From Pocillopora verrucosa (Eukaryota > Cnidaria > Anthozoa > Scleractinia > Pocilloporidae): a stretch of DNA of 64,000 nt. Of this stretch, positions 4,160 to 62,577 are shown piece by piece. Numbering within the stretch: position 1 is the first letter of the stretch; every line of letters starts with the position of its first letter. The stretch lies in contig NC_089321.1 in NCBI RefSeq assembly GCF_036669915.1, positions 10,619,414-10,683,413 of the forward strand. Reading direction: 5' to 3'. The notes under the pieces were generated by a model. The model searched no databases, was not told where the DNA came from, and saw nothing but the letters and a program-made list of their open reading frames with translations. The position numbers and the translations under genes were made by a program.

Positions 4160-7100
4160 TTAATTTGCCCCTGCTTCCACTTGATTTTGAGAATGCCCTT
4201 CAACTTTATCATGCATTGCTTGCTGCTGATCCTTTCCAGGTGACTTGGGCATTTCTTCCATTTCCTCACTCTCTCCTGATGCAGCCTGTGGGCTTTCCTC
4301 ACTCTCTCCTGATGCAGCCTGTGGGCTTTCCTTACTCTCTCCTGATGCAGCCTGTGGGCTTTCCTCAGCTTTAGAACTTATAAACATGATAACAAATGCA
4401 CCCATAAAGAGAGCAAAGGAAGACAAAAAATGCCACAGGTCATGCCAGTCGAAAAATCCAAAAATGACACATTCTTTGTTTTGGTCACGAGAGTTTTCTG
4501 GCGACGATGTTTTGTTTGTGGTGGGTAGCAATTTAAAAACGGCAAAAGCTGCCACCAAAATGATAAAGGTGAACCCCATGAAAAGCCCTTGAAGAGAGCA
4601 TAATGTTTCACACTTGCATTTACATTTGCAAAGCTTAGCTTTAGCTAGGATTGCGACAATGCTACAGGCAATGCAAGCAAACAGAAACACTTGAGCCAGA
4701 TCGCTAAACAAGTAAACCATAAAAAACCCACAGGGCACTATCAGGCCACCCAAAAAGAATAAAAACACATCAAAATTTTTTTGACAGTCATCACCACAAA
4801 TCTTTTGGCGGATATCTAATTTAATAAAAGCCCAATAAAGCATCATAAGCCACCAAATAATCAGGAATCCAAAGAAAAACCCCTGCATTACTTTGTTGAG
4901 CCCAGAATCGGAGTTATATAGTGCACCAAAGTAGTTAAAAACAAAAAGAGGCACAATAAAAAAAAGGAAGAAGTTAGAAGCGCCAACTGGGTGTTTCACA
5001 TTTCCAGAAGAGGGACAACGATTCTGCTCAATGCCATTATACAACAACAGCACAGTTAAACCAGCTATGATAAACATGAAGGCCGAATCGAACTGAAATG
5101 TGAACCTGCTTGGACAGAAGTGGTAAAGAGTAGAAAATAATCCCTCGAAAACTAGTCCCCAGGAAAACGCATACCCAATAGAAAAACAGTACCTCTTTTT
5201 CATTACTTTGGCAAAAAATATGTTCTCCTTTTTTTTCCTTTCTTCCCTTTCCATGGGGTTTTTGGGTTCTGGAATACCTCCCTCCAAATGATGAATGTTA
5301 GTTTCAGGACATGACAGAATATGTTCTGGTAGCCTGGATCCCTGAAGATTGGTGGCTCTGCTTTTGCAACGAAGATTCACCTTGGCTTCCAGTATCAGTA
5401 CCCACACCACTAAGATTAGGCCATGGACTATGTATGTCAAGTTACTTATCATCAAGTTAAATGGAATATCATGACTTGCAACTCTATAACAAAAGTCATT
5501 GTAGTAACAATTATCTCTGTCCCCTTCCTGAATCATTGTATACCAGTTTGCAAACACAAACTGAAAAGCACCAACCATAAGCACATTACCCACGATACCT
5601 GTGATGTAGGAATAGGTCTTTGGACCAAAGGAAAACCAGTGATCTATGATTACCTCCCACAGGTTGCAACATGAAATTTTTAACTCAATATTATTGCCCT
5701 GTTCATCTTCACCAACCTTGACCTTGGTAAGAGACTCTTCGAAGAGAAAATATGCAATGACAGACACTAATATACCAACCAGAAATGATACAAAAAATAG
5801 GACACAAATAGGCTTGGCATAATTATAATCGAACGACCTTGTCAGCCTTAATATGACATTTTTTGACTCACTAATTTTGACGTCACCTGATAAGTTCTTC
5901 AGACCAATTCCAATGAACCATTTGGATACAGAATTGGTTAAAGGGGGAATAGAAACTCTGGATAAAGTTATCCGTCCTTTTGTTGCAAAGGAAAGTCGAA
6001 GAGATTCCTTCCTATAATCTATCCTCTCAAGGTCTTTCTGGACATCTACATCTTTATAGTTCTGCGATACCTTCAAATAGGCAGCAACTTCTGATTGAGA
6101 TGTGGCAGTGATGTCCAGTTGTCTATCAGAGATACCTTGAGGTGGAATGAACTGGAACACACTCACTTTAGCTCCCTGGACATGGACTTTGAGTGGTACA
6201 TCAAGCGCAATTTCTGATGCACCTTCGGCTACTTGCACTGTGAAAGAAAGCCCACTGCCTTTTCCCACCACTGATAATAACTTCTTCCCTGTGGTTTCAT
6301 CATTGGTCAAACCAGTTGGAAAAATGCTTATAGTGTTCCAAACTGGTGTAGGCTCCGAAACATCCATATAACCAAGTGGAGACGACTCACCTTGCTGATA
6401 CAAGGAAACATGCAAGAAACCTACAAATTAAAGGATTGATAATCCAGCCCATGAATACATCAACAACTACTAAAACAGATGATGATAAGATTTCACAAGA
6501 CCTAATGGCTCCCTTGCCTGCTGGTCTCTGAATCAAGCTGGGCTTCTTGATGGAGACACTGTGTTCTATTTTTTAATTCAAGGGAGACATTTACCTCACA
6601 CATTTCTCCACATCTCTAAATCTCTAATGGAATCTATTTGTTTTAAATAATAAAGAATTTAAAAAAATTTTAATGATGACATAATCTATATGTCTGTCCT
6701 CCAATAGGTCATAGGTGAGAACCAATCAGAATGCGTGCATAACTGAGCTTATTATATAATACATATTAGATCATTGTGGAAAAGGAAGAAAAGAATAAAC
6801 AGCTGTCTGCATACTTGAGGTCACTAAACAAGATAAAATCAAACTTTTTAAACCAATATGAGTGAAACCGACCTTTCCAAGTACCAATCGATCTCTCTGA
6901 CTATTGGAATCCGAAAGATTTTTGGATACGCAAGTGGGTGTACAGGCTGGATAAACAATAAACATCTGAAATATGCCGAGCAGTCAAAAGCGAATTTGTC
7001 AAACAAACTAAGTACAAGAAAGGCAGGTCAGCTAGGCTCATGTGTTTCAAGTTTCTTGCAGAAACGCTAGTTTCTGACTTTTTGCTCTTACAAGGACACA

Positions 7101-17699: not shown

Positions 17700-18284
17700 T
17701 AACACAAATGAGCTGGCTCCAAGAGCTCTTTGATTATGCCCAATAATGATTCTTAACATGACACTTTGAAAAGACAAAATCGTAGTTATAATAGATAATA
17801 AATTGCCGTCTTGTTTCAGACAATTTCTTTGATGAATATTTAGGGCTCAAGCTACGCATACTTTTTGTTGTGGCTGAATCCACCCAAAGAAAGTTGATAA
17901 ACAAAGTTAGAAAAAGTCCTATTTGGCCTCGGGGGAAGCCAAAAGTACAAGCTCTGATTCCAGAAAATAGCGCAAACTTAAAAGTAATTTAATACTAATT
18001 CATATTTGCGAGCTTTCGTCCAATTTATCGTGCTTGGAAGAATATTTAGAGTTTGAATTCAACACCAACGGGATCTTAAGGGAAACGTATACTCCAGAAA
18101 CCATATATTAACTTATCCATGTACAAGAACATATCAACTAATTTACTTTGCTGCATTTTGAGTTTCTTAAGAGTAACCCAGCTGTGACTGATCAGTCTCG
18201 ACCTCTTTCTTCCATCTATAGGCGGTCCTTTTAGGGCCACTCAAAAAAACATTCTTGACTCAAACAAACACGTCTTACGATAAC
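17700..18284. repeat. Orphan copy of SIDT exon-1 upstream flank
   Basis: Similar to 26010-26460, 52450-53040 and 63340-63920: 'attcttaacatgacactttg', 'tttgatgaatatt', 'aaatcctatttggcctcggg' and 'gggatcttaagggaaacgta'. It marks an ancient SIDT duplicate whose gene body is gone. Confidence 0.6.
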
Positions 18285-18412
18285 CAGAAAAAAGCGAAGA
18301 AACACTTCTGTAGTAGTTTGCTAAGCCCAGACTCGGAGTTGAAGAGCGTACCAAAGTAGTTAAAAAAAAGAGAGAGGAACAATCAAAAAAGGAAGAAGTT
18401 CGAGACACCCGT
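18285..18412 (-). pseudogene. SIDT exon-3 fragment
   Basis: About 128 bp match locus F around 36380-36480 (ctaagcccagactcgg, gcgtaccaaagtagttaaa, ggaagaagtt), i.e. the segment encoding the FFLFFIVPLFxxNYFGTLFN region in the membrane domain. It has no usable frame and abuts the minisatellite. Confidence 0.7.
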
Positions 18413-18429
18413 CCAAAAGCCAGAATGAG

Positions 18430-18790
18430 CCACTCATAGCCAAAATCCAAAATCGGCCACTAGTGTCCAAAAGCCAAAATCGGCCATTAAAGTTCAAAAG
18501 CCAGAATCGGCCACTATAATGTCCAAACTCCGGAATTGGCCACTAGTGCCCGATATGCAAAATAGGCCACTAGTGTCCAAAATCCTGAATCAGCCACTGG
18601 AGTTAAAAATCCAGAATCGGCAACTAGTGTCCAAAAGCCAGAATCGGCCACTAGTGGCCAATATCCAGAATCGCCCACTAGTGTCCAAGATCCAAAATCG
18701 GCCAGCAGTGTCCAAAAGCCAGAATCGACCACTAGCAGCCAAAATGCAAAATCGGCCAGCAGTGTCCAAAATCCAAACTCGGCCACTAGT
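18430..18790. repeat. 27-bp minisatellite array (left block)
   Basis: About 13 units with core 'ggccactagtgtccaaaa'. It is separated from the larger block at 19720 by non-LTR retrotransposon sequence, which probably inserted into the array. Confidence 0.85.
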
Positions 18791-19715
18791 AATAATAATG
18801 ATAATACAAAAACTTCTATAACGCCTATTCTAGAGCTCTCAGGCGCCTTACAATAAAATGTTTAAAGCAGTAACTTAGCAAATAATAAATTCGAAAAATA
18901 CCAAAGTAAAACTACAAATTAAAACAGCGCTTAAAAAGATAAGTTTTGTGGTTGCTCTTAAGAGATATAAGACTGAACTACAATTTATATGTTATGGAAG
19001 ATTATTCCAAAGTTTCGGGGCGCAGACCGAAAAAGCACGATCACCATAAAATTTTAACCTTGATCTAGCTGTCAGTAACAAGTTCATGGTTGATGATCGT
19101 AAAATCCTGTGTTGGCTTGTAAATTTACAACAAATAACGAATATAGCTAGGACTTAAATAATTTAAAATTTTAAAAGTCAACAGTAGGATTTTTTTAGAC
19201 AATTCTCTGCACCACGGGAAGCCAGTGTATTTCTCTCAGTAAAGGAGTAATACGGTCATATTTAGAACCACATAAGATCTGACGCGCCGCACAGTTCTGA
19301 ACTAACCGAAGTCTATGAATTAAGTAATTCGGAAGTCCATAGAAAAGAGAGCTACAGCTGTCCAATCTATACATTACGAAGACATGCAAAATTTTGGTGC
19401 TTTCAGCAGGCAAGAGCTTCCTAATACGAGAAATATTGCGAATGTGAAAAAAGCCGAATTTACAAATGGCAGCTACTTGGCGTTCCATTTTCAAATTATT
19501 GTCAAAATAATACCTATGTTGCTGGCAGAGTGAGAGGGATTTATAACTGAACCATCAACCGCCGTGAAAGAGAAGAGCTGAGAGACTGGACTATGTTGCG
19601 ATCTAATGACCAAAAGCTCTGTCTGTCACCATTAAGTCTAAGTTTGTTCCGAGACATCCATGTCGGTAATATCATGTAAACATACTTCAATTCTCGGCAC
19701 AATTACAGACGAATC
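18791..19715 (-). mobile_element. Non-LTR retrotransposon fragment (RT C-terminal region)
   Basis: Minus-strand frame 19195-19494 reads KILHVFVMYRLDSCSSLFYG, then GLPNYLIHRLRLVQNCAARQ and LREIHWLPVVQRI. This is the conserved C-terminal part of jockey/CR1-type reverse transcriptases. The rest of this interval, up to about 19690, looks like more of the same element, with FSFTAVDGS-like text in broken frames. It is truncated and dead. Confidence 0.75.
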
Positions 19716-19719: not shown

Positions 19720-20850
19720 CCTAAAATCCAAAATAGGCCACTAGTGGCCAAAATCCAGAATCAGCCCAAAAGCCACAATTGGCTAGTAGTGTTCCAAAGC
19801 CACAATCGGCCACTAGTGGCCATATCCAAAATTGGATAGTGTCCAAATTTTAAAATCGGCCAGTCTAGAGTCCAAAATGCAAAGCCGGCCATTAGAGTCC
19901 AAAATCCAAACTCGGCCACTAGTGTCTAAAAGCCAGAATCGGCCACTAGTGGCCAAATTCCAAAATCGATCGGGCACTTGTGTCCAGAATCCAATATTGG
20001 CCTTTAGCGTCCAAATTCCAAAATCGGCCACTAGTTTCCAAAATCTAAAATCGGCCACTAGTGTGCAAAAGCTAGAATCGATAACTGATATCCAAAATGC
20101 AAAATCAGCCACCAGTGTCCAAAATGCAAAATCGGCCACTAGTGTCCAAAATCCAAAATCCAAAATCGGCCACTAGTGTCCAAAATCCAAAATCGGCCAC
20201 TAGTCTCTAAATTTCAAAATCGGCCACTAGTGTCCAAAATCCAAAATCGGCCACTTGTGTCCAAAATCCAAAATCGGCCACTAGTGTCCAAAATCCAAAA
20301 TCGGCCACTAGTGTCCAAAATCCAAACTCGGCCACTAGTGTCCAAAATCCAAAATCGGCCACTAGTCTCTAAATTTCAAAATCGGCCACTAGAGTCCAAA
20401 ATGCAAAACCTGCCATTAGAGTCCAAAATCGGCCACTAGTGTCTAAAAGCCAGAATCGGCAACCAGTGACCAAATTCCAAAATTGGGCACCTGTGTTCAG
20501 AATCCAATATTGGCCTCTAGCGTCCAAATTCCAAAATCGGCCACTAATTTCCAAAATCTAAAATCGGCCACTAGTGTTCAAAAGCCAGAATGGATCACAA
20601 GTGTCCAAAATGTAAAATCAGCCATTATATCCAAAATCCAATACCGGCCACTAGTGAGTAAAATCCAAAATCGGCCACTCCAGTCCAAAATGCAAAATCG
20701 GCCACTAGTATTCAAATTGCAACATCGGCCACTAGTGACCAAAATGCAAAATCGGCCACTTGTGTCCAAAATGCAAAATCGGCCACTAATATCCAAAATC
20801 CAATGTTGGCCACTAGTGTCCAAAATCCAATATCGGCCACAGGTGCCTTA
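19720..20850. repeat. 27-bp minisatellite array (main block)
   Basis: About 40 units of a 27-bp repeat with core 'aaaatcggccactagtgtcc', plus variants 'cagaatcggc' and 'ccaatattggc'. Because 27 is a multiple of three and the unit lacks stops in some frames, both strands show artificial open frames (plus: VSKIQNRPL repeated; minus: DFGFWTLVA-type). Confidence 0.95.
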
Positions 20851-25300: not shown

Positions 25301-25961
25301 AAGTTTCTTGTAGGAACGCTAGTTTCACTTTTGCTCTTACAAGGACAGAGTATCCTGAAATTGCTAGAAGTTTAAAGGTGGCATTTTGTTCATTGGTGGA
25401 ATACCACAACAATAATGTTCTGGTTTAACCGTAATTTTCGGAAATAAAGATCCTTTGTAAGAAGCGACCACCCGAAGAATGCATGAGTGGCACTGGATTC
25501 AGTAAAAGTTTTAATTGTACGTCTCGAAAGAAGGAACCCTGATCGGTGCAAACAGCGAATTGCTTCAGGAAAAGCTGCAAAGTCCTGAATTGATAATAGT
25601 TATCCCTTTCGGAATTTTCAAAAGCACTTTCGGATTACTAAAGAATAATCAAGAAATTAACGACAAAACTTCGCTCTCTAAGAAGTCGGTAAGACCACTC
25701 TATCAAACTGGTTATGCCCTCACCTTTTTCGTTGTCATTCCTTTTAGGTTTCATGCGTAAAAAGCTCCCAGGTTTATCTAACTTCAAAACGCAAGATAGC
25801 TGCAGATAGCTGTTGTTGGATAGTGTGCCAGTGATCTCTATCACCATCGTCTGGACATTTGAAACGTTCATACCGGACGAACATATTGCCTGAAGATGCC
25901 CAAATGCTGAGGGGCACCACGCGAGTAGAAGTAGGAATGAATGTAAAAGGATTGAAAACAT
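22331..25961 (-). pseudogene. SIDT-like: SIDT locus B: broken SID-1/SIDT-family gene
   Basis: Exon 1 (25724-25961), exon 2 (24551-24613 or -24610) and the first two fifths of exon 3 (from 24357) are intact and very close to locus D. Exon 3 is then broken three times: a one-base loss near 23245-23250 (after the residues ALEATAIK), a TAG at 23072-23074 where paralogs have Gln in the IEQNR motif, and a TAA at 22775-22777 in the FMYYLFS-like segment. The conserved CYYNDFCYR and HDLWH motifs are still readable in the separate pieces, so decay is recent. Translation would stop before the SxxxH/D metal site. It could still give a secreted or single-TM ectodomain product, but a pseudogene is the simplest reading. 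Confidence 0.85.
25724..25961 (-). CDS. SIDT-like: Exon 1 of SIDT locus B (signal peptide exon)
   Basis: ATG at 25961, signal peptide MFSILLHSFLLLLAWCPSAF, then GHLQAICSSGMNVSNVQ and the LDKPGSFLRM strand. Donor G|gtgagg at 25724/25723. Intact although the downstream exon is broken. Confidence 0.75.
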
Positions 25962-26544: not shown

Positions 26545-26775
26545 TATGGACAATTTGGGACACTGTTGTCCAATTTTTGACATTAGTGTCTGATTTTAAA
26601 CAGTGGTATCCGATTTTGGACACTAGTGTCCGAATTTAGACACTACTGACCAATTTTAGACACTAGTGTCCGATTTTAAACATTAGAGTCCGACACCAGA
26701 GTCTGATTTAAGGCACTAGAGTCCGATTCTAGACACCAGTCTCCCATCTGAAGGTTTGTGTCCGACTTTAGACAC
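26545..26775. repeat. Minisatellite relic, reverse orientation
   Basis: Degenerate units of 'gacactagtgtccgatttta', the reverse complement of the 27-bp unit core. Confidence 0.75.
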
Positions 26776-27190: not shown

Positions 27191-27639
27191 CGGCTACCAA
27201 TCATTTAGCAGATGTGTTATTTATCACTCACCCTCAACTTACTTCTGCATGAGCATACAATCCAACGCACTGTTTATTATTATACTTCTTCGTAAATTCA
27301 GTAAATGCGAAAGTACCGATTAACTGACATAATACTCTAATTAACTTGTATCCTTGTATTGTAACAGAGGCTATAACTTCTAGGACGATTATCCCTTACT
27401 TTCTATTGGTGGCCAATATTGGTCAATATAATAATGCCGATAAAGATTACTTAGGTTGCAAATGCAAGCTGGTTATACTTCTGGCTGAAGTTATTACCAA
27501 TTAAGTAGGTGATTAATAGAACTTGGCTCAGTAGGTTTTAAGAACACCCAGATGCTAGTTTGAAAAGCAAGTTATTTACAATGTACATTTAACCCACGTC
27601 TGGTCATAATCTCTCTCTTGATTATTATGCTTATGCAAA

Positions 27640-33985: not shown

Positions 33986-33999
33986 TTATAATAGGTTGC

Positions 34000-39147: not shown

Positions 39148-39193
39148 GTGAAGTGTTTGTTAAACTATTCTATCAAACTGACTCTACTCTCAC

Positions 39194-39428
39194 CTCTTTG
39201 GTTGTCATTCTTTCGAGTACTCACTCGTAAAAAGCTACTAGGTTTGTCCAACTTCAACACGCAGGAACGTTGTAAATTATTATCGTCAGGTAGTCTGCCA
39301 CTGATCTCTGTCACTACATTCAGGGAATTTGAAACATTCATGCCGGACGAACAATTTGCCTGAAGTTTTCCCCAGGCAGGGAGGCACCAAGTGAGAGCAA
39401 ACAGGAATGCATTAACGATAAAGAACAT
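39194..39428 (-). CDS. SIDT-like: Exon 1 of SIDT locus F (signal peptide exon)
   Basis: ATG at 39428, signal peptide MFFIVNAFLFALTWCLPAWG, then KLQANCSSGMNVSNSLN and VLKLDKPSSFLRV. 235 nt, phase 1, donor G|gtgaga at 39194/39193. Clearly homologous to the other exon 1s but diverged. Confidence 0.8.
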
Positions 39429-47227: not shown

Positions 47228-50200
47228 TCATGCCCTTTTTACCCTTTGCTCAGGTTCAAAACTTATAAACATGACAACAAACACACCCATAAGGAGAGCA
47301 ACGGAAAACAAAAAATGCCACAAGTCATGCCAGTCGAAAAATCCAAAAATGACACATTCTCCGTTTTTGTCACGAGAGTTTTCTGGCGCCGATGTTTTGT
47401 TTGTGGTGGGTAACCATGTGAAAACCCAAACAGCTGCTACCAAAATGATAAAGTTGAGAAAGATAAAAAGAACTAGTAAAGTACCCCTACCATGAAGCTT
47501 TCCAAATTTGCCTTTGGAAAGCTTCTCCCAAGGCCTAGCTTTAGCTAGGATTGCGGCGACGCTACAGGCAATGCATGCAATCAGAAGCGCTTGAACCGGA
47601 TCGCTAAACAAGTTATACGTAAAAAACCCACTGGGTATTTGCAGGCCACTCCAAATGAATAAAACTGCGTCAAGTTTGTCTTCACCGTCACCACTTCTAA
47701 ACTTTTTGTGTCTATTAAATGTAAACCAAGTCCAGCAAACTATCACAAGCCAGAAAATGACCAGGAATACCATGAAAAACCCCTGCACTGTTTTGTTGAG
47801 CCCAGAATTCGAGATAAGTAGCGCACAAAAGTAGTTAGAAATAAAAAGAGGCATAATAATAAATAGGAAGAAGCCAGGAGCGTCAACTAGGTACTTTTCA
47901 TTTTGCGGACTATTCTGCTTAGTGCCACTATACAGCAATAGTACAGTTAAACCAGCTATGATAAGCATGAAGGCCGAATCGAACTGAAATGTGAACACGC
48001 CTGGACAGAGGTGGCAAAGGGCGGACAACAATCCCCGGAAAACCAAAGCCCACGAAAACGCATACCCAATAGAAAAGAAAGACCCCTCTTGAATTTTTTT
48101 TTCCGCCACGGCGGCTCCGCCACTTCTGCGACGAAGATTCACCTTCGTTTCCAGTATTAGTACCCACACAACTAAGATTAGGCCGTGGACTATGTAAGTC
48201 AAGTTACTTATCATCAAGTTAAACGGAATATCATAATTTACAACTCTATAACAAAAGTCGTTGTAGTAACATTTATCTCTGTCCCCTTCCTGAATCATCG
48301 TATCCCAGTTTGCAAACACGAACTGAGAAGCACCTATCATAAGCGTAAAACCCACAATGCCTGTGATAAAGGAATAGGTCTTTGGACTGGCGGAGAACCA
48401 ATGATCTCTGATTACCGTCCACATTGTACAAACGAACACTTTTAAATTAGCATTATTATTGACCTGATTACCTTCACCAGGCTTTACCTCGAAGAGAAAA
48501 TACGCAAAGATAGACACTAATATACCAACCACAAATGATACAAAAAATAGGACACAAATGGGCGTGGTATAATTATAATCGAACGACCTTGTCAGCTTTA
48601 AAGTAACATGTTTTGACCCACTAAGTTTGACGTCACCTGATGAGTTCTTCAAACTAATTCCAATGAACCATCTGGAAACGGAATCGGTTAAAGGGGGAAT
48701 GGAAACGCTGGATAAAGTTATCCGTCCTTTTGTTGCAAAAGAAAGTCGAAGAGATTCTTTCTTGTAATTTATGCTCTCGAGGTCTTTCTGGACATCGACT
48801 TCTTCACAGTTGTGCGATACCTTCAAATAGGCAACAACTGTTGATTGAGACGTGGCAGTAATGTCTAGTTGTTTATCAGAGATACCTTGAGGTGGAATGA
48901 ACTGGAACACGCTCACCTCATCTCCCTGGACATTGACTGTGTGTGGTTCATCAAGCGCGATTTCTGATGCACCTTCGGCTATTTGCACTGTGAAGGAAAG
49001 CCCACTGCCTTTTCCCACCACTGATAACTTCTTCCCTGTGTTTTGATCATTGGTCAAACCGGTGGGACAAATGCTTAAAGTGTTCCAAACTGATGTTGGC
49101 TTTGAAAGGTCCACATGACCAAGTAGAGATGAGTCAACTCTCTGGTACAGGGAAACGAGCAAGGAACCTAAAAATAAAAGAGAGAATCTAGCACATGAAT
49201 ACATCAATAACTACCAAAACAGATGATAATAAGATTTCATAGGAGCCCACTAATGTGGGGTTAATGTCCACCCTAATGGCTTCGCTTGCCTGCCGGTCAC
49301 TGAATCGAGCTGGGCTTCTTGCTGGAGACGCTTTGTTCTATTTTTTAATTCAAGCGAGACATTAAGCTCACAAATTTCTCCAAATCTCTCTACTTTGTAG
49401 TGAATGTTAGGGAAGGTCACAGACCCATATTCTTCAGATAAAATCAAACTAGAAAATGACTAATGTATCTTCTCAGCATAGCTGCTTCTTAGATCATTGT
49501 AGAAAAGAAGGTCTGAAAATGTTGAGACTTGTTCTTCCAGGCGCTCTTATCAGTACAAATATTTTTCTTTCCATAACTCACACCTAAGTTCCACATATCA
49601 GAGCCAAAATCTACTCTTATTTCTCTATAACCTTTAATTTTTATAGTATCTTTTGGAAACAGATTTGGAGACTTAATTTCTACTTCCTACTAGGAGGGAG
49701 GTGATACTGACCCTTATCGAGCTGGTAAGTCACCGCAGGCTGTGAAATAGTAATAATAATAAAAAAAGCTGTCTGCATATTTGAGATCACTGAGCAAGAT
49801 TAAATCAAACTATTGAAAACAAATTCAGCGAAACGAGACCTATCCAAGTAGCTACCGATCTCTCTGACCATTGAAAACTGAAAGATATTTGGACTTGCAA
49901 TACGGGTGTACAGGCTGGATAAACAGTAGACACGGAAATATGTTGCGCAGTCAGAAACGAATTGTGTTACGGGGAAATTTACTGATTCTTCCGTGTGTTT
50001 GTTTGGGACATGTTTATTCGTAAACTTTCCATATTTAATCATTTGAGTTCTTTCAAGTTCTTTCATTCTAGTAAGCTAAAAAAATTAATATCTATATATA
50101 TTTATAGAAAACCACAGTAGCTTTTGAAAAGTAAACTAGGAGATTTCTGCTTCGTTTCTTGCTTCCATTATACACCTGTATGTCGGTACTTTTGTCGTTC

Positions 50201-51677
50201 ATTATTAGTGAAATTTTAGGTTAATATAAGTGTTAATGGTCTTTCTGGAAAAACTGGTTCTCATGGCAGTAGGTAGCTGAGTTTATACGCGTAATTTTTA
50301 TTTCCTTTCATACGATAGTTTCCACACCAACCTTACATAGATAAACAGAAATTTTAGTTACTTTTCCACTTTTATTTCCAAAGCTACTCCACCGTGATTA
50401 AGATAGGTAATATTTTCTATAACAGAGCTTCGAATTCTCACCTAAGTTTCCTATTTTTAATGGCCTAGAGTCTATTGTATCCTTCCTTTTCATTTTGAGA
50501 TTATTTTCGTCGTAGAGACAGATGGAATATTTAAGTAGCTTCTGTTTAACTTCAAAGAAACATTTTTCGATTCTTCTGTTATACTGTTCAAATATGGTAG
50601 ATTTGGAGAACAATGGAACCTGACATCAGTTCTTATTTAAGCAAGTACTTTGTAAAGCTTTTTTCGATTACATAGACGACGGCATGCCGATTACCAGTTT
50701 AGTTTTTACTCTTGCATGATGTACGTTAGAGGGCTCTTCGAATAAAGTCTGCTGTGGAACCCAAACGCTGTCTCATCCTTGACCTCCGTATAAGCTCGCT
50801 CGAAGTAGATCGCCGTGTACCAGGAAATCGTGACGAGTTTCAGTTCTCGCAAGCCGAGTGGTTTCTACCGAGTTATTTTTCCCCCGTTTTTTACGTTTCC
50901 CACAAAGTCCAGTTTAGTGCGCGAAAACCTATCGTCATAATGAGTCAAACAAACTAAGTGCAAGAACGGCAGGAGCAAGGGTAATGTGTTTCTAGTTTCT
51001 TGCAGGAACGCTGGTTCGCTTATGCTCTTTCAAGGACAGTCTATCCTGAAATCACTAGGAGTTTAAAGTTGGCATTTTGTTCATCGGTGGAATGCCACAA
51101 CAATAATGCTCAGGAATTAAAGATCCTTCGTAAGAAGCGACCACCTCAATGAATGCATGAGTGGCGATTCAGTAAAAGTCTTAATTTCAAGTCTCGAAAG
51201 TAAGAACCCTGATCTGTGCAAACAGTGAATGTATTCAGGAAAATCTACAAATTCCTGAATTGATAAGAGTTACCACTTTCGGAAATTTCGAAAACACTTT
51301 CGGATTACAGAAGAATAATCAAGGAATGAAATGAATGTAGAAAGAGAGATTTTGTTTCTTCATTAAAACCAAAAGTCAACAAAACTTCGCTCTCCTAGAA
51401 GTAGGTAACACCACTCTATCAAACTGGTTATGCCCTCACCTTTCTTCTTGTCATTCCTTTTAGTTTTCATGCGTAAAAAGCTCCCGGGTTTGTCCAGCTT
51501 CAACACACAAGATAGTTGCAGATAGCTGTCGGTGGATATTGTGCCAGTGATCTCTATCACCCCACTCTGGACATTTGAAACAGTCATGCTGGACGAACAT
51601 GTTGCTAGAAGATGTCCACAGGCTGAGGGGCACCAAGCGAGTAGAAGTAGGAATGAATATAAAAGGATTGAAAACAT
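47228..51677 (-). CDS. SIDT-like: SIDT locus H: intact SID-1/SIDT-family membrane protein
   Basis: Exons 51440-51677, 49372-49431 and 47228-49167 join in frame to 745 aa. Donors are gtgagg and gtgagc; acceptors ctgaag and tttttag. Order: signal peptide, ectodomain (exon 2 gives EYGSVTFPNIHYKVERFGEI), RSFDYNYT, TM1, a short acidic linker, TM2, CYYNDFCYR, membrane core. CREST metal-site residues are kept: SxxxH as LSALCHLCPG, Asp in TFQFDSAF, HDLWH near the end. The loop before the SxxxH helix is shorter than in A or D (only AAVAEKKIQEGSF), which explains most of the length difference. Tail ends EPEQRVKRA. Exon 3 also has an in-frame ATG just upstream of its acceptor that would give MMYSCARFSLLFLGSLLVSL, a plausible alternative signal peptide. 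Intron 1 is enlarged by an LTR-like insertion. Closest copy is J. Confidence 0.92.
49966..50944. mobile_element. LTR-like insertion in intron 1 of SIDT locus H
   Basis: About 980 bp absent from the same intron in A, B, D and J; the intron text resumes at 'gtcaaacaaactaag'. It begins tgttacgggg and has 'cttcgaataaagtctgctg' (polyadenylation-signal-like) near 50738. No ORF. A solo LTR is the best guess; the exact ends and a target duplication were not resolved. Confidence 0.5.
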
Positions 51678-53119
51678 CCTAAAAAGCAAGGCTTACGTTG
51701 CTTTATTTAGATAGCACCTTATCTTGTTGGTTGTGCTGCGTGCAAACAAGAGACCTGACGGGTGTTTTTATGCCCTATTGATTCTCAACACGACACTTTG
51801 GAAAGACAAGAGCCTAGTAATAATAGGTTGCTGTCTTGGGTCTTGTTTTAAATAATTTATTTGATTAATATTCAGGGTCAAGCTACTCATGCTTTTTGTT
51901 GCGGCTGAATCCACCCAAAGTTAGAAAAATCCTATTTAACCTCGGAGAAAGCCAAAAGTACAACCTCTTGCTCAAGCTCAAGACTTGCGTTGCTTTATTT
52001 AGATAGCGCCCTATCTTGTTGGCTTTCCATGCCGTAATAATTCTCAACATGACACTTTGGACAGACAAAAGCCTAGTTATAACAGGTTTCCGTCTCACTT
52101 TAAATAATTTATTCGATGACTACAACTTTATTTCTGGCGTAGGGGCTCATCACAGAGTGCGTTTCTACCAGAACAATTTGCAATCTCAGCAGCCAGCGAA
52201 AACACATCACAATATCACTAGAGTCAATAAGTGCCGGGAGTAATAACAAGCAAACAGTTGGAGCGCGGGAAAAATGCGGGCGACCAAGTCTCGACTGGGT
52301 TTTAGTTTTGCATCTGATTGGTTGTTGATCGGGTGGCGGAACTTTTCTGAGTCATAAAGCGAAGAAAAACAAAACCATGACCATCCCGGATCACTTCGAC
52401 ACTCGGGTACAAATAGTTCTCGGCCACCGATCATTTAGCAGATGAAAAGCAAGGCTTGTGTTGCTTAATTTAGACAGCGCCGTATCTTGTTGGCTCTGTT
52501 GCGTGCAAACAAGAGACCTGTGTTTCTATGCCCTAATGATTCTCAACACGACACATTGGAAAGACAAAAGCCTAGTAATAATAGGTGATGAATTGCCATC
52601 TCTTTTGAAATAATTTCTTTGATGAAAAATTCAGGGTCAAGCTACTCGAACTTTTTGTTGAGGCTAAATCCATCCAAAGTTAGACAAATCCTATTTGGCC
52701 TCGGGGGAAACCAAAAGTAAAAGCTCTGATTCCTGAAAATAACGCAAGCTTATAAGTAATGTGGTGCCAAATTTGCGAGTTTTCCTCAAATTAATCTAAT
52801 ATTTAGAGTTTGAATTCAACACCAACGGGATCTTAAGGGAAACGTATGCTCCAGATACTTATATTAAGTCATCCATGTACAAGAGTATATGAACTTAATT
52901 ACTTTTTCCAAAGAGTAGCCCAGCTGTGACTGAACAGTCTCGAACTCTTTCTTCCATCCAAAGGCGGTACTTTTGGACAATTAAGGGCCAGTCAAAGAGA
53001 CATTCTTAACTCAAACAAATACCTTTTTACGATAATCAAAAAACAGTTGATACAGACTTTTGACATTAGGGTCTGATTTGAGAGGGTGGTTTGATTTTGG
53101 ACGCTAGTGTCAGAATTTA
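51271..53119. repeat. Segmental duplication, left copy
   Basis: Includes the end of intron 1, exon 1 and the upstream flank of H. It matches 62171-64000 with only scattered differences by eye (for example an 11-bp gap near 52824 versus 63704), so it is a recent duplication. Contains a CCAAT module (52160-52440) and a minisatellite relic from about 53050. Confidence 0.85.
51440..51677 (-). CDS. SIDT-like: Exon 1 of SIDT locus H (signal peptide exon)
   Basis: ATG at 51677, MFSILLYSFLLLLAWCPSAC then GHLLATCSSSMTVSNVQSG. Donor G|gtgagg at 51440/51439. Confidence 0.88.
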
Positions 53120-53520
53120 CTAATGACCGGCTTTAGACACTAGTGACCGATTTTAGGCACTAGTGTCCAAGTATAGACACTACGTAGTGACTAATTTTAG
53201 ACACTAGTGTCCAATTTTAAACATTAGTGTCCACGTCCACAAGAGCAGTTTTCAACTGACTTTCGAAAAAACAAAGCCATTCAAGCCCAAAAGCCGATCA
53301 TAACAAGCTTTAACACTATCAACAGCCGATGAGAACACAAATTATTCAAGCAAACTACCAATAGCGCGGAAGATCGCGGAGGACCAAGTCACGATTTATT
53401 TTTGTTTTGCAGCTGATTGGTCGAGGAGGATAGTGTGCGTTTTCTACACCATTCACAGGCCGAAGTAAAGCAAACAAAAGCAATCCCAGATCAATTTTGA
53501 CATGCAATTGAAAACTTCCT
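53050..53520. repeat. Minisatellite relic followed by CCAAT module
   Basis: Reverse-oriented degenerate minisatellite units (gacactagtgtccaatttta) to about 53235, then a CCAAT-type module similar to 35540-35790. Confidence 0.6.
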
Positions 53521-53526
53521 TATTAT

Positions 53527-54095
53527 ATGGAGTTTTACATTGCACTCCCTTACATTACTTATTCTGAAGCCTACGACTTTTGCACGGGTTCAGAACTTAA
53601 AAACATGACAACAATTATGGCCATTAGGACACCAAAGGAGGACAAAAAATGCCAAAGATCGTGCCAATCGAAAAATCCCAGAAAAGCACATTCTTCGTTT
53701 TGGTCACGGGAGTGTTCTGGCGTCAGCGATTCGTTTGTGGTGGGCAGCGATTTGAAAACGCCAAAAGCTCCCACTAAAACGATGAAAGTGAGGAAGATGA
53801 AAAGCCCTTGATAAATTTCGTGGCTGTTCGGCAATTGTGCTTGCATTCACAGCAACAGCACAGCTTTCTCCAGGGGCTAAGCTTAGCGGGGACAACAATG
53901 ATGCTACAAATGTGCAGGTATACAGAAACACCTGTGACAGATTGATGAACAAAAACACAAAAAGATACCCAAGGGTACTACCAGGCCACCCAAAATGAAT
54001 AAAAACACATTACATGCATTTCGGCATACTCCTTTGTGGATATTTAACTTATAAAAAGCCCACTAAACTATCAAAAGTCACCAAAAGTCAGGAAA
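53527..54095 (-). pseudogene. SIDT 3' fragment (F-type)
   Basis: Resembles the end of locus F. Frame 53571-53846 is open through PENSRDQNEE-like text (here PEHSRDQNEECAFLGFFDW) and HDLWHFLSSFGVLM to a stop. Upstream, the frame shifts (MFLFINLSQVFLYTC-type text in another frame) and homology ends near 54095 at the CCAAT module. No promoter or ectodomain, so not functional. Confidence 0.8.
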
Positions 54096-54282
54096 ACTTC
54101 TGTAGTAGTTTTTCTGAGCCAATCATAGAGCGAATGAAAACAGAGCTATGGCAAGATCTCAGAGTACTTTCGACACTTAGGAGGAAAAAGCTCTACCAGT
54201 CAAATACCAGATATGTTGACTCACTCTTTGTTCCCTTCTCCACGAATAACCAATCCCACACACTGTTTATTCCAGCATCGCC

Positions 54283-55536: not shown

Positions 55537-55559
55537 AGGACAGAATCTTTATTACACTT

Positions 55560-56080
55560 CTTCTAAACTTTAGTTAAGTTAGTTAGCGAAAGTTTCGTTA
55601 AACCGACATAATACTACAATAAACTTGTATCCTAGTATTACATGAATAACCTAGATGAGAACTTCTAGGACGGTTGTGTTTCACTTTCTATTAATGGCTA
55701 ATATTTCAGGAAAGGTTTGCATTAAAAAACTACCACACTTCTCGATTGCGTTTTTTTTTTTCGTTTCTTAAATGGCCCTTTACGCTGTCTTGATCAAGAA
55801 CGTCGCTTTACATAAATTGACTTGGTTGACCCAAAGTACATGCGGAAATGGCAAATTCTAACATGTGAAAGATTGTCTCTAATTCTAAAAATTTTATGAT
55901 AAAAATCTAAAAAGTTTACAAATACCTTCACGAACGTTTCAGGAAAAAAAAATTATGGTAATTACAAATGGCCATAACAGCTTTGTCTTAAAATCATTCC
56001 TCGATATAAGAATACAAATACAGTATACTTCGTTTATAAATTCCAGCTGGTTATAATGCTAGCTAAGTTAGTACAGGCTC
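55560..56080. repeat. Shared downstream flank of SIDT locus J
   Basis: Paralogous to 3341-4159 and 46090-46640. No gene. Confidence 0.55.
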
Positions 56081-56084
56081 CTAG

Positions 56085-56265
56085 CTCATTACTTCCTCAC
56101 GTTTAAGCCTCTCATACCCTTTTTCCCTTGTGCTTCTGGCTCATCATTCCCTCGCGTTTTAGCCTGCACTACGCTTTTTTCCCTTTGTGCTTCTGGCTCA
56201 TTATTCTCTCGTATTTCAGCCTGTGGGCATTGTTCAGGTTCAGAACTTACAAACATGACAGTTCA
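56085..56265 (-). pseudogene. Duplicated fragment of SIDT tail-coding end
   Basis: Repeats 'tcccttgtgcttctggctca', 'ccctcgcgttttagcctgc' and 'caggttcagaacttacaaac', matching the last about 180 bp of locus J exon 3. It is truncated at the segment encoding the VMFMSSKAE region. Confidence 0.7.
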
Positions 56266-56760
56266 GTAGCCCTCTTATCATTACCAAGGTAAGTAACCAC
56301 ATGCTAAGATTGAGCCTACACAAGGTGCTGAAAGTGATCATGAAAGCAGGGCAGTATAATATTTTTCTTGAGAGACCTGATGTTAAATCCCAGAAGTAAA
56401 CGAGTGTATACCCTCTCACCCCATTTAGATCCCCAAGACATCTCCACGTTTTTCAGAGCATTTTTCAATTGCTGTCGAAAATCTAAAACCATATAATCAC
56501 CATGTAACAGTCAATAAGCACAAAGATTGATATTACCAATAACCAATAAGAACTCAGAATAAAACAGGTAAAATACTAAAAGCGCGGGAATTCACGGGCG
56601 AACAAGTTATGATTAATTTTCGTTTTGTAATCACAGACAAAAGTAAAGCAAAGATGATGCAATCCCGGATCACTTTTGACACTCAATTGAAAAATACTCT
56701 TATGTAGAAGTTTCTGCTCAATTTTTCCTTTGTGCTTCTGGCTCATTATACCCTCACGTT
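56266..56760. repeat. Downstream flank of SIDT locus J
   Basis: Shared 'ccctcttatcattaccaagg' block, a shortened C-rich tract near 56412 and a CCAAT-type module at 56485-56690. No gene. Confidence 0.5.
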
Positions 56761-59700
56761 TTAGCCTGCACTGCCCTTTTTTTTCCTTTTTCCTCTTCTC
56801 TCATAATTCCCTCGCGTTTTGGCCCGCACTGTGTTTTTTTCCCTTTGTGCTTCCGGCTCACTATACCCTCGCGTTTCAGCCTGCTGGCTTTGCTCGGCTT
56901 TAGAACTCATAAACATGACAACAAACGCACCCATAAGGAGAGCAAAGGAAGACAAAAAATGCCACAGGTCATGCCAGTCGAAAAATCCTAAAATAACACA
57001 TTCTTTGTTTTGGTCACGAGAGTTTTCTGGCGATAATGTTTTGTCTGTGGTGGGAAACTGTGTGAAAACCCAAACAGCTGCTACCAAAATGATACCGGTG
57101 AGAAAGATAAAAAGAACTTGTAAAGTGCCCCTACCATGAAGCTTTCCAAATTTGTCTTTGGAAATCTTCTCCCAAAGCCTAGCTTTAGGTAGGATTGCGA
57201 CGACGCAACAGGCAATGCATGTCAACAGAAACGCTTGAGCCGGATCCCTAAACCAGTAAACTTTAAAAATCGCCGCGGGTATTACAAGGCCACCCAAAAT
57301 GAATACAAATGCGTTAAATGTCTTGTTCCTACAACACTTTTGGTGCATATTTAGTTTATAAAAAGCCCAAAACAACATCCCAAACCACCAAATGATCAGG
57401 AATTTGTAGAAAAACGCCTGCATTGTTATGTTCAGGCCAGAATTCGAGTTAAGTCGCCCAGCAAAGTAGTTTAAAACAAAAAGAGGTATAATGAAAAGTA
57501 GGAAGAAGTTAGAAGCGTTAACTCGGTACTTCTCATTTTGAGAACGATTCCGCTCAATGCCATTATACAACAACAGTACAATTAAACCAGCTATGATAAA
57601 CATGAAGGCCGAATCGAACTGAAATGTGAACACGCCTGGACAGAGGTGGTAAAGTGTGGAAAACAATCCCTGGAACCCCAAAGCCCAGGCTAACGCATAC
57701 GCGATAGAAAAAGAGTACCTCTGTTTTATTGCTGTTGCCCCTTCGACGTCTTTGCAGCGAAGATTCACCTTCCTTTCCAGCATCCATAGCCACAAAGCTA
57801 AGATTGGGCCGTGGACTATGTAGGGTAAGTTACTTGTCATTAAGTTACATGGAATATCAAGATTTGCAACTCTATAACAAAAGTCGTTGTAGTAACATTG
57901 ATCTCTGTTCCCTTCCTGAATCATCGTATTCCAGTTTACAAACACGAACTGAGAAGCACCTACCATAAGCGTAACACCCACAATACATGTGATGTGGGCA
58001 TAGCCCTCTCGATCAGAGGAAAACCAGTGAGATCTGATTACCTTCCGCTCTTCACAAACTAAATTGGCATTATTATTGACCTGATTACCTTCACCAGGCT
58101 TTGCCTGGATGAGAGACTCTTCGAAGAGAAAATACGCAAAGATAGACACTAATATACCAACCACAAATGATACAAAAAATAGGACACAAATGGGCGTGGC
58201 ATAATTATAATCAAACGACCTTGTCAGCATTAATGCGACATTTTTTGACTCACTAAGTTTGACGTCACCTGATAAGTTCTTCAGACCAATTCCAATGAAC
58301 CATCTGGAAACGGAATCGGTTAAAGGGGGAATAGAAACGCTAGATAAAGTTATCCGTCCTTTTGTTACAAAGGACAGTCGAAGAGATTCCTTCTTGTAAT
58401 CTATGCGCTCGAGGTCTTTCTGGACATCGACTTCTTCACAGTTGTGCGATACCTTCAAATAGGCAACAACTGTTGATTGAGACGTGGCAGTGATGTCCAG
58501 TTGTTTATCAGAGATACCTTGAGGTGGAATGAACTGGAACACGCTCACCTCAGCTCCCTGGACATTGACTATGCGTGTTTCATCAAGCGCGATTTCTGAT
58601 GCACCTTCGGCTATTTGCACGGTGAAAGAAAGCCCACTGCCTTTTCCCAACACTGATAACAACTTCTCCCCCGTGGTTTTATTATTGGTCAAACCGGTGG
58701 GACAAATGCTTAAAGTGTTCCAAACTGATGTTGGCTTTGAAAGGTCCACATGACCAAGTAGAGACGAGTCAACTCGCTGGTACAAGGAAACGAGCAAGGA
58801 ACCTAAAAATAAAAGGGATAATCTAGCACATAAATACATCAATAACTATCAAAACAGATGATAATAAGATTTCATAGGAGCCTACTAATGTGGGGTTAAT
58901 GTCCACCCTAATGGCTTCGCTTGCCTGCCGGTCACTGAATCGAGCTGCGCTTCTTGCTGGAGACGCTTTGTTCTATTTTTTAATTCAAGCGAGACATTAA
59001 GCTCACACATTTATCCAAATCTCTCTACTATGTAGTGAATGTTAGGGAAGGTCACAGACCCATATTCTTCTGATAAAATCAAACCAGAAAATGACGAATG
59101 TATCTTTACAGCATGACTGCTTCTTAGATCATTGTAGAAAAGGAAGTCTGAAAATGTTGAGGCTTGTTCTTCCAGGCGCTATTATCAGTACAAATGTTTT
59201 TCTTTCCATAACTCACACCTAAGTTCCACATATCAGAGCCAAAATCTACTCTTATTTCTCTATAACCTTTAATTTAAAAGTATCTTTTGGAAACATAGCT
59301 CAGATTTGGAGACTTAATTTCTACTTTAACCTGCCGTGACTAATCCTAAGCGCCCAGACTGACTAGGAATAAAAGGAACAAATTGAGCGAAACGAGACCT
59401 TTCCAAGTAGCTACTGCATGATCTCCTTGACTATTAAAATCTGAAATATTTTTGGATTCGCAGAAGCGAATTTGTCAAATAAAACTAGGTACGAGAACGA
59501 CAGGAGCTAGGCTGATGTGTTTCAAGTTTCTTGTAGGAATGCTAGTTTCACTTTTCCTCTTACATGGACAGTCTATCCTAAAATTGCTAGAAGTTCGAAG
59601 TTGACATTTTGTTTATTGGTGGAATGCCACAACAATAATGCTCAAGTTTAACCGTAATTTTCGGAATTAAAGATCCTTCGAGAGAAGCGACCACGACGAA

Positions 59701-62577
59701 GAATGCTGTAAAATTTTAATCATAAGTCTGATCTGGAAAGAAGGAAACCTGATCTGTGCAAACAGTGAATAGCATCAGGAGAAGCTGCACAGTCCATAAT
59801 TAATAATAGTTACCTGTTAAGGATATCGAACAAAAGAACAGCCTTTTTTTTTATTAGATCAATTGTCAATTACTTTAATTTGTGTGCCTAGTTACAATCT
59901 TAGTTACAATGTTTATCTTTTTCCCTATTGGTTTGTAATCGGATATTTTAGCGTCACCACGCGCATATAAAAACTAAATTAGCGTCCCTATAAGCCAGAG
60001 TTTCGTAAGATTTCACCTTGAACAGCAGCAACTTCGTTCTTTCGTTCCAAACCTTTGGCACAAGCGGGACCGATATGTAAGTGATTTTGTTAGTTTTATT
60101 TCAATATGTTTAAGTTTAGTTTTTACCTTGGGCGATAGCGCACATATGTACTGTGTTGTACAACAGTACAACTAATTATCTTGAAATCGAAGGAGTATTT
60201 TGAAACACAGGCGGCCCAAGCTTCAGCTGTGAGATGATCATCTTACGCAATAACGGTCATGGCGGAATTATAAGAGTTTGTATGGGCATATTTACGACCG
60301 CCCTCAGGAATAAAAAAAAATACGTCAAATTCTCAAAAAAAATACCTCACCTCGCTTCCACAGCGTATTGCTTGTTATCTGACCGCTTACTTTGATGAAA
60401 AGAGCCCATTTGAGCGAGTTGTTCATTTCGAGGTTTTCAACGTACATAAGAAAAGCCCAAGGCTGAACACTCCATTTCCGAACGCCTGATCCGAGAAGCG
60501 AAAAATCCAAGCTCAAAATGATAGGGCGGCCACAAATCCAACACAGAATCCAAGCACACATAATGTAGTTTCATTTCAATTCACTACAAACTCAATCTTC
60601 CCCGTGCAACCGACGCTAAGCCGCGGTTTGCTTCAAAAATTTCCAGTTTAGAGGTTTCTAACAGCCCGCGACCACATCAACCTTGACACACGACCGTTGA
60701 AACCCTACCTCCTTTTCAAACTGAGCCTTGCCGGGGACCACACCGTCCGTTATTATCAATAAATTAGTTTAGAACCACGGGTCCCCTCCGGTCGAAATCG
60801 ATCGAGAGGCTATTGTTTTATCCTAAAGTAAAAGAAATAAGTATCTACAAGGGCACTTGGCAAGAAACACATACACGAAGTGCGAAATTTAGCGTAGCCG
60901 GCAACTAAGAATAAAGTAAATACTTACATGGCTGAGCGACTTGTTCTATTGTGACTCACATTCTCGTGCGGACGAAGCGAAATAACAGTTGTCTTGTTGG
61001 CAGAATTAAAATAGGTATGTCCAGATAGAACTAAATTGAATACTGGTATAAATCCTTGCCAGGTTTTCCTCTGACTACGAAAATAATCACACATTTGTAA
61101 ACATTTCCGAAGGCGAATTCGATTGGCCGATCGAAACAATAGCCTCTTGATCGATTTCGACCTGAGGGAACCCGTGGTTCTAAAACAATTTATTGATAAT
61201 AACGGACGGCGTGGTCCCTGGCGAGGCTCAGTTTGAAAAGGAGGTAGGGTTTCAACGGTCGTGTGTCAAGGTTGATGTGGTCGCGGGCTGTTAGAAACCT
61301 CTAAACTGGAAATGTTTGAAGCAAACTGCGGCTTAGCGTCGGTTGCACGGGGAAGATTGAGTTTGTAGTGAATTGAAATGAAACTACAGTATGTGTGCTT
61401 GGATTCTGCGTTGGATTTGTGGCCGCCCGGTCATTTTGAGCTTGGATTTTTCGCTTCTCGGATCAGGCGTTCGGAAATGGAGTGTTCAGCCTTGGGCTTT
61501 CTTATATGCGTTGAAAACCTCGAAATGAACAACTCGCTCAAATGGGCTCTTTTCATCAAAGTAAGCGGTCAGATAACAAGCACTACGCTGTGGAAGCGAG
61601 GTGAGGTATTTTTTTTGAGAATTTGACGTATTTTTTTATTCCTTAGAGCGCTCGTAAATATTCCCATACAAACTCTTAAAATTCCGCCATGACCGTTATT
61701 GCGTAAGATGATCATCTCACAGCTGGAGCTTGGGCCGCCTGTGTTTGAAATAACTAGACGCTCACACAGTGACGCCCACATTTTAGTCTTTGGGCTGTTA
61801 ATCAGCCGCAAATGGTCATCGTGTAGCCGATCTTTGAATCTCGAGTAGTTTTAATTTAGCCTTTTATGATTTTTTTATGTTAATTCACGTTGATTGTTGT
61901 TATTTTAATCGCGTTATCGACATAGGCACGTAAAGCGTTTCTTTCATGCCTTTCGCACCAATTCAATTAGATTCATGCTTTCGTTATAATATTATTGCAA
62001 TTTCAGTTTACGATCGTGATCGTGACCGTGATCTAAATAAACACCGTTGATAGTCATCTTGGTTTTCGTGGTTTCATTACGACCGGTAAAATAGTCCCAC
62101 ATCAGCGAAACTTAGAAAACACGCATAGCGACACCCCTCGAAGTTTCCTCTTTCGTCGCAAGCGTCGCTTTACCACTTTCGGAAATTTCGAAAACACTTT
62201 CGGATTACTAAAGAATAATTAAGGAATTAAATCAATGTAGAAAGAGAGATTTTGTTTCTTCATTAAAACCAAAAGTCAACAAAACTTCGCTCTCCTAGAA
62301 GTAGGTAACACCACTCTATCAAACTGGTTATGCCCTCACCTTTCTTCTTGTCATTCCTTTTAGTTTTCATGCGTAAAAAGCTCCCGGGTTTGTCCAGCTT
62401 CAAAACACAAGATAGCTGCAGAATGCTGTTACTGGATAGTGTGCCATTGATCTCTATCACCCCACTCTGGACATTTGAAACATTCATACCGGACGAACAT
62501 GTTGCTAGAAGATGTCCACAGGCTGAGGGGCACCGAGCAAATAGGAGTAGGAATGAATATAAAAGGATTGAAAACAT
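56761..62577 (-). CDS. SIDT-like: SIDT locus J: SID-1/SIDT-family membrane protein with nonsense exon 2
   Basis: Exon 1 62340-62577, exon 2 59007-59066, exon 3 56761-58802. Exon 3 is fully open: ectodomain, RSFDYNYA, TM1, acidic linker, CYYNDFCYR, SxxxH (FSTLYHLCPG), Asp (TFQFDSAF), HDLWH, then a long basic tail (RGKRKKKGSAG end) encoded by roughly 65-70 bp DNA repeats at 56740-56890. Exon 2 has TAA at 59011-59013 where H, B and D have a sense codon (GAA in H and B). Joining exon 1 to exon 3 directly keeps frame (759 aa), so an exon-2-skipped product is possible; otherwise this is an early pseudogene. Like H and B it has an ATG in frame upstream of the exon 3 acceptor (MMYLCARLSLLFLGSLLVSL). 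Intron 1 is expanded by a 2.36-kb nested insertion. Assigning this exon 1 to this exon 3 is inferred from order. Confidence 0.8.
59815..62169. mobile_element. LTR-like insertion with 5-bp target duplication
   Basis: Flanked by TTACC on both sides (59810-59814 and 62170-62174); the same intron position is uninterrupted at 51270 in locus H. The insert starts tgttaaggatatcg, has a TATA-like 'atataaaaacta' near 59966 and 'aataaa' near 62035, and no gag-pol. Minus its nested foldback element it is about 810 bp, which fits a solo LTR, although the 3' end is not a canonical CA. Confidence 0.6.
60206..61743. mobile_element. Foldback element with about 610-bp arms and 7-bp target duplication
   Basis: Starts cacaggcggcccaagc and ends with the reverse complement. 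TTTGAAA occurs on both sides (60199-60205, 61744-61750). Left arm to about 60818, right arm from about 61134, unique spacer of about 315 bp. The arms match almost base for base by eye. Both encode the same open frame on opposite strands (NNSLKWALFIKVSGQITS), with no known domain. Confidence 0.85.

Follow-up and report, generated by a model that had tools for sequence, protein, structure and literature searches.

A tandem array of SID-1/SIDT genes in the coral Pocillopora verrucosa with a conserved catalytic site and a signal of diversifying selection in transmembrane segments 6-10

Described SID-1/SIDT proteins and the coral array

It is debated whether SIDT proteins serve mainly in RNA transport or as lipid hydrolases and sterol carriers (PMC11208740). 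The zinc ligands of human SIDT1 are His563, Asp574, His791 and His795, and zinc ligands and disulfides are described as completely conserved across the SID-1 family (PMC11137008). Double-stranded RNA (dsRNA) is bound by the loop between transmembrane segments (TM) 1 and 2 of human SIDT1 and by SIDT ectodomains, while TM5-TM8 rearranges with cholesterol, which attenuates the ceramidase activity (PMC11137008). TM5-9 of the same protein constitutes a flexible lipid-binding domain, with a dimer interface lined by TM5 and TM6 and with TM7-8 protruding into the lipid (PMC11208740). Two SIDT copies are reported for mammals and 0-3 for insects (PMC3146951; insects also PMC2395250). Here, an array of SIDT genes of the stony coral Pocillopora verrucosa is described from a window of 64,000 bases without N (C10:10619414-10683413; genome of 353 Mb in 52 contigs; gene positions below are those of the window). 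Its open copies keep the catalytic site and show their fastest divergence in TM6-10.

The window contains six SID-1/SIDT copies, g1-g6, lying head-to-tail on the minus strand, with models spanning 4160 (g1 stop) to 62577 (g6 ATG). An initial annotation, made from the letters alone, had proposed six tandem SIDT copies on one strand with at least five fragments; the gene models reproduced its limits of 4160-62577 and five relics were confirmed. Its assignment to SID-1/SIDT was borne out by a profile check, as the exon-2 frames of all six copies (for g2, the first open piece of exon 2) matched PF13965 SID-1_RNA_chan with E-values of 1.3e-7 to 1.8e-36, each above the gathering score of 28.7 bits. 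These were six of the eight frames given; the remaining two, which are not SIDT exon 2, had no Pfam match. Comparison of the g3 frame with the PDB gave 16 distinct sequences, all of them human SIDT1/SIDT2 constructs or fusions, or C. elegans SID-1. The array is composed of genuine SID-1/SIDT genes of the CREST superfamily; together with a second tandem array it belongs to an expanded, intron-poor clade. Ten other window frames given to Pfam yielded three weak sub-threshold matches, none convincing, and Rfam gave zero matches on the window at gathering scores. Relatives were not found in one scan of viral contigs, nor in one scan of bacterial and archaeal contigs.

With vertebrate SIDT1 and SIDT2, including the human proteins, the coral copies share PF13965, the disulfide cysteines (CYYNxxxC, YHxCP and the last-loop Cys), the zinc ligands His/Asp/HxxxH and the block SPxxSRxxNxEC...HDxWHFLSS. 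They differ in standing in tandem arrays, in having two exons or none and in their fast TM6-10; moreover, the TM1-TM2 loop of the window copies is short and Arg-poor, and their ectodomain cannot be aligned to the vertebrate one by sequence. Human SIDT genes, in comparison, have many exons. C. elegans SID-1 and TAG-130 share the family profile and the motifs, and for TAG-130 at least 18 exons are reported (PMC2395250). A lineage-specific expansion of SID-1-like proteins has been described in Caenorhabditis, where in C. elegans the full residue set is found only in SID-1 and TAG-130 (PMC3146951); in the coral, however, it was found in all 11 open copies defined below. The insect sil genes (e.g. 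Tribolium silA-C) are likewise small multi-copy SIDT sets, with far fewer copies than the coral. The signature SxxxH, Asp, HxxxH is also shared by the CREST hydrolases (alkaline ceramidases, adiponectin receptors, Per1 and TMEM8), which are not known to have an SIDT-type ectodomain. In these hydrolases, the four TM segments by which SID-1 proteins exceed the core of seven are described as absent (PMC3146951). A transcriptome study of the parasitic cnidarian Sphaerospora molnari reports that it did not identify SID-1 (PMC10861503). Among the matches listed in a search of open-licence PMC papers (titles and beginnings of abstracts), neither a cnidarian SIDT expansion nor positive selection on SIDT was found.

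Catalytic site and selection along the protein

Conservation was assessed in 11 open intron-poor copies, comprising four window genes, six exon-2 frames of contig C7 and one intronless C7 gene. All 11 keep CYYNxxC, SxxxHxCP, FQFD and HDxWH, and all 11 carry the CREST signature (SxxxH, Asp, HxxxH; PMC3146951) in that order. Motifs equivalent to the four zinc ligands of human SIDT1 are present in each copy, as are the cysteines in CYYNxxC, in HxCP and ahead of D.HD.WH, which are the equivalents of those forming the human SIDT1 disulfides 479-565 and 485-782. The conservation of the CREST residues had been claimed beforehand and held throughout this set. It had also been claimed that CYYNDFCYR and TFQFD occur in all six window copies, which was confirmed, and that copies then labelled A, D, H and J carry SxxxH, Asp and HDLWH in one frame; these are presumably g1, g3, g5 and g6, all open. 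The count of five copies keeping HDLWH proved slightly low, since its letters are present in six, behind a frame break in g2 and in another frame in g4.

Hydropathy analysis of g3 gave a signal segment and ten segments over the threshold, with TM4, which carries SxxxH, lying below it. Each open copy is predicted to encode a membrane protein of 11 TM segments (seven of the core plus four) preceded by a signal peptide. In the six window copies the TM1-TM2 loop is 29-57 amino acids long with 0-3 Arg, the number of sequons is 1-6 and the ectodomain has a net charge of -3 to +10.

Pooled over the four open window copies, the NG86 omega (non-synonymous over synonymous divergence, dN/dS) was 0.40 in the ectodomain, 0.33 in TM4-5 and 0.99 in TM6-10, the latter being the part of the window copies that diverges fastest by substitution. 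This block lies on the minus strand at 4526-5035 in g1, 29761-30252 in g3, 47411-47926 in g5 and 57055-57561 in g6. Comparison of codon models M2a and M1a by maximum likelihood (ML) gave, for TM6-10, a doubled log-likelihood difference (2dlnL) of 23.2 with six copies (142 codons) and 27.6 with the four open copies (160 codons), rising to 28.9 and 38.5 when gap-adjacent columns were dropped. Null simulations for the six copies (120 data sets) gave a maximum of 7.6, with 0/120 reaching 23.2. When the proteins of the four copies were split by module, the selected class was significant for TM6-9 (21.1) and for the 22 codons of TM10 (13.6), and not for TM1-4 (0.05) or TM11 (0.4). For the TM2-5 core the value was 0, and for the ectodomain it was likewise not significant (2.47 with six copies, 0.00 with the four open ones). 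Sites with a posterior above 0.8 in the six-copy analysis were alignment columns 628, 646, 667, 673, 692, 767, 770 and 771; on a topology inferred from the g3 hydropathy and the human protein, they fall in the post-TM6 loop, within TM7 and TM8 and the loop joining these two, and at the luminal end of TM10. Diversifying selection in TM6-10 is shown as a statistical signal.

In the four open copies, the ML omega was 0.53 for the ectodomain (p 0.0003 below 1) and 0.55 for TM2-3 (p 0.03), and the ectodomain is under purifying selection. This bears directly on the dsRNA side of the suggestion of the initial annotation (selection for diverse dsRNA or lipid uptake), by which the paralogs would diversify to recognize and import different dsRNAs of antiviral or symbiont relevance. 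Membership of the SID-1/SIDT family speaks for this idea, as do the reported binding of dsRNA by SIDT ectodomains (PMC11137008) and the variation of sequon number and ectodomain charge among the six copies. However, the ectodomain is constrained without a significant selected class, the TM1-TM2 loop of the window copies is short and Arg-poor, and dN/dS calculated per domain places the signal in TM6-10 instead. As an Arg-rich TM1-TM2 loop marks SIDT1/2 and does not define the family, its lack lowers the RNA claim and not the membership. On the purifying selection of the ectodomain and the short, Arg-poor loop, dsRNA-driven diversification was rejected as the main driver and is judged improbable. 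The same annotation had named the TM1-TM2 linker, the loop before the SxxxH helix and the C-terminal tail as the parts where paralogs differ most. This stood as regards indel variation and the tail repeats of g1 and g6; for linker and loop no positively selected class was found (2dlnL 0.87, on 33 codons only).

The closest open pair of each array provided a control. For g5 and g6, dS was similar in the ectodomain (0.121) and TM6-10 (0.139), whereas dN was 0.047 and 0.276, respectively, a six-fold difference; counts of non-synonymous to synonymous changes were 26:20 in the ectodomain and 91:14 in TM6-10 (p 1e-4), and the ML omega was 0.45 and 3.03 (p 0.0008 for TM6-10). An independent replicate was given by a1 and a2, which are closest to each other within the C7 array, with counts of 20:22 and 66:10 and ML omega of 0.30 and 2.79 (p 0.005 for TM6-10). 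Noncoding divergences, summed over BLAST pieces that include some short repeats, were 0.092 (intron) and 0.158 (3' flank) for g5-g6 against the TM6-10 dN of 0.276, and 0.123 (upstream and intron) and 0.049 (3' flank) for a1-a2 against a dN of 0.187. For TM6-10, 2dlnL was 14.7 in a set of five C7 copies and 24.6 in a set of nine copies; every other block of these two sets gave 0.

These controls also bear on relaxed constraint, by which duplicates would drift to pseudogenes while TM6-10 tolerates hydrophobic swaps. Such decay is visible at the locus: two of the six window copies and the five relics are broken, two more broken copies adjoin the window, and omega is near 1 in several pairs, in the six-copy block and, at 0.88, in the TM11 block of the open copies. 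Relaxation, however, cannot raise dN over dS or over nearby noncoding divergence, yet in each of the two arrays the closest open pair showed this; the null simulations and the retention of the catalytic residues in all 11 open copies also speak against it. On the TM6-10 selection tests, the simulations and this retention, a plain pseudogene array was rejected, and relaxed constraint is considered an unlikely account of the divergence.

A further alternative is that recombination or gene conversion mimics the signal. The copies are mosaic, and long identical third-position tracts occur in 3 of 15 pairs (g4-g6, g2-g6 and g1-g4; p<0.05 uncorrected), which also counts against diversifying selection as the explanation. 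A divergent donor, though, would have raised dS too, and for g5-g6 the dS of TM6-10 is close to that of the ectodomain despite the excess of dN. The signal also persisted when TM6-10 was split in two sub-blocks, each given a separate tree (2dlnL 16.7 and 16.1), and in the two-sequence tests, which need no tree. Conversion is accordingly regarded as a very improbable source of the signal.

A number of other results weigh against selection in TM6-10 and its match to the human lipid-binding domain. The six-copy TM6-10 block as a whole has an omega of 1.09, not above 1 (p 0.56), and in TM6-10 three of five pairs are not significantly above 1 (g1-g3 0.89, g1-g6 0.94 and g3-g5 1.61, p 0.076). The b-group of the C7 array has an omega of 0.41 overall with 2dlnL of 3.5, its dS being near saturation. 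TM5, which is part of the human lipid-binding domain, has no significant class in the four copies (2dlnL 3.2, 25 codons), and the significant TM10 belongs to the human TM-domain core, so the fast region matches the human module inexactly. Among the four open copies, purifying selection on TM4-5 is borderline (omega 0.49, p 0.052), and the block of HDLWH and TM11 is indistinguishable from omega 1 (p 0.78), the motif itself being kept. The codon models were run with our own code, calibrated solely by its own null simulations, on few sequences. Furthermore, as regards the double jelly-roll ectodomain of the SID-1/SIDT family, an ectodomain profile compared with the PDB gave six matches, none an SIDT chain, at E 0.33 or worse, and an AlphaFold2 model from the six window copies had a pLDDT of 33.9 and was unusable, the ectodomain being strand-rich in this low-confidence model. 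Because the ectodomain cannot be aligned to solved SIDT chains and the model is of this quality, the selected sites are given without placement in three dimensions.

Gene models, the second array and origin of the clade

Each window copy has an exon 1 that spans 78-79 whole codons and in which a signal peptide is recognized by eye, an intron of 1.1-3.5 kb and one giant exon 2. In the six-copy alignment, all share the donor, reading A(A/G)AG in the exon and GTGAG in the intron, and an in-frame phase-1 acceptor. Four genes, all on the minus strand, are open: g1 (4160-7771; exon 1 7771-7534, intron 7533-6421, exon 2 6420-4160; 832 amino acids), g3 (29557-33317; exon 1 33317-33080, exon 2 31688-29557; 789), g5 (47228-51677; exon 1 51677-51440, exon 2 49167-47228; 725) and g6 (56761-62577; exon 1 62577-62340, exon 2 58802-56761; 759). 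On the same strand, g2 (22331-25961; exon 1 25961-25724, exon 2 from 24347) is broken by a 1-nucleotide frame break near 23240 with two in-frame stops beyond. Also broken is g4 (35855-39428, minus strand; exon 1 39428-39194, exon 2 37987-35970 in frame), where a 2-nucleotide frame break shifts HDLWH and TM11, readable to about 35855, to another frame.

Read frame by frame, the five relics are partial and mostly broken. All lie on the minus strand and comprise a weak match to the TM6-7 region (18281-18358; best E 4e-5), a TM7 to HDLWH region with the motif decayed to YDLC (27634-28117), a TM1-TM3 region (33665-34028), a TM7 to TM11 region with frame breaks (53574-54113) and a C-terminal tail of g6 type (56119-56262).

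The similarity of g5 and g6 upstream raises the possibility of a haplotype or assembly artefact. Their 5' halves (51270-53118 and 62170-64000), the long stretch of highest similarity, are by megablast 96.97% identical over 1849 bp, and a comparison restricted to the 5' flanks gave 97.57% over 1441 bp, with TM6-10 segments that are far more different; a megablast search within the window listed zero matches of at least 97% and at least 200 bp. Against an artefact stand the whole-gene pairwise dS among window copies of 0.155-0.535, the differing intron lengths, the continuation of the array on a 21.5-Mb contig and the presence of a second array on another contig. Because of this dS range mis-assembly, already named as a concern by the initial annotation, was deemed unlikely, and the probability we attach to an artefact is very small indeed.

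Between the gene units, minisatellites with 20- and 27-bp units and a related ACTAGTG-type core were noted at 2861-3014, 18411-18790, 19766-20840, 26559-26726 and 53119-53233; these are possible substrates for unequal crossing-over. Tandem repeats also occur in the C-terminal tails, with 33-bp units in g1 (4261-4367) and 57-58-bp units in g6 and the tail relic (56077-56881). The g6 intron contains a near-perfect inverted repeat at 60199-61750 (620-bp arms, 95.6% identity, 315-nucleotide spacer), which is probably a foldback element, though a curious one to find within an SIDT gene; in the g6 pre-mRNA the repeat is predicted to fold as a long dsRNA hairpin (551-nucleotide core, -269 kcal/mol, z -19). 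A minus-strand frame at 19198-19554, without Pfam match at E 0.1, resembles the C-terminal end of a reverse transcriptase of a long interspersed nuclear element, and a similar piece reads inside g8, just outside the window.

A genome-wide search with PF13965 gave 38 matching places, confined to contigs C6, C7 and C10. The array of the window continues beyond it on C10 with g7 (one stop and a frame break), g8 (interrupted and truncated) and one relic. The second array, at C7 24.285-24.475 Mb, comprises six open exon-2 frames (a1, a2, a3, b1, b2 and b6; 618-832 amino acids) and three partial copies. All six share the acceptor position, and in the two for which exon 1 was located the donor is shared as well; exon 1 of a1, a2 and a3 was not located by pattern, and b6 gave a partial tblastn match only. 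Two nearly identical frames inside this array (C7:24455108-24455617 and 24463768-24464235) resemble a 2-hydroxyacid dehydrogenase, and their presence there suggests that neighbouring genes were co-duplicated with the SIDT copies.

Two further SIDT genes lie apart from the arrays. C7:7125681-7128281 is a wholly intronless SIDT gene with an 866-codon frame (865 amino acids from the first ATG), a signal peptide recognized by eye, complete active-site motifs and 30-33% identity to the array copies. At C6:25.004-25.012 Mb lies a multi-exon SIDT gene. It is marked by eight Pfam matches, each the size of an exon, of which two score below the curated cut-off, and no N-terminal exon of it was located. 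One of its introns splits the codon of the catalytic Asp (exon end TTTG, intron GTAAGT ... CTGTAG, exon start AC), and the same place (FQFD) is uninterrupted in all 11 open intron-poor copies.

Because exon 2 is uninterrupted and the C7 gene is intronless while the C6 gene has many exons, the expanded clade probably stems from a processed SIDT copy, either retroposed or cDNA-converted. A founder of this kind would then have spread by unequal crossing-over. The evidence for this origin is the missing introns. The protein tree separated the copies on C10 from those on C7, with several weakly supported branches (41-64), and the order of duplication events was therefore not drawn. The mutual relationships of the copies are mosaic, with birth and death of copies.

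Elsewhere in the genome, 74 GFP-family exon matches were noted in two clusters on contig C1 (0.67-0.88 and 28.36-28.79 Mb), which holds all of the genome's matches. Expansions and clusters of this family are typical of Anthozoa, and the matches fit the anthozoan source supposed in the initial annotation.

Lipid specificity as a proposed explanation

The open copies may act, like SIDT1/2, as zinc-dependent intramembrane lipid hydrolases or as sterol-sensitive lipid or RNA-uptake proteins. It is fairly probable, judging from the sequences, that they represent catalytically intact SIDT lipid hydrolase or transport proteins in which the specificity for lipids, sterols or partners is diversifying, and not the recognition of RNA. 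The paralogs would then differ in the lipid or sterol that is bound or hydrolysed, or in their pairing partner, rather than in the RNA recognized, since the part that changes shares an overlap with the flexible lipid-binding module (the TM7-8 loop and TM8, with the luminal end of TM10 also involved).

More tentatively, and with a rather low probability, the SIDT lipid-binding module may be engaged in a recurrent evolutionary conflict, whether with a pathogen, with a symbiont or with the coral's own paralogs. It could then form part of a fast-evolving, lipid-acting arm of innate immunity in anthozoans, or serve the exchange of sterols or lipids with symbionts.

In the debate on SIDT function, an evolutionary argument for lipid specificity would come from paralogs in which the lipid-binding region diversifies but the catalytic site is retained and the ectodomain constrained. 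These natural SIDT paralogs also supply matched variants with which lipid specificity may be tested directly.

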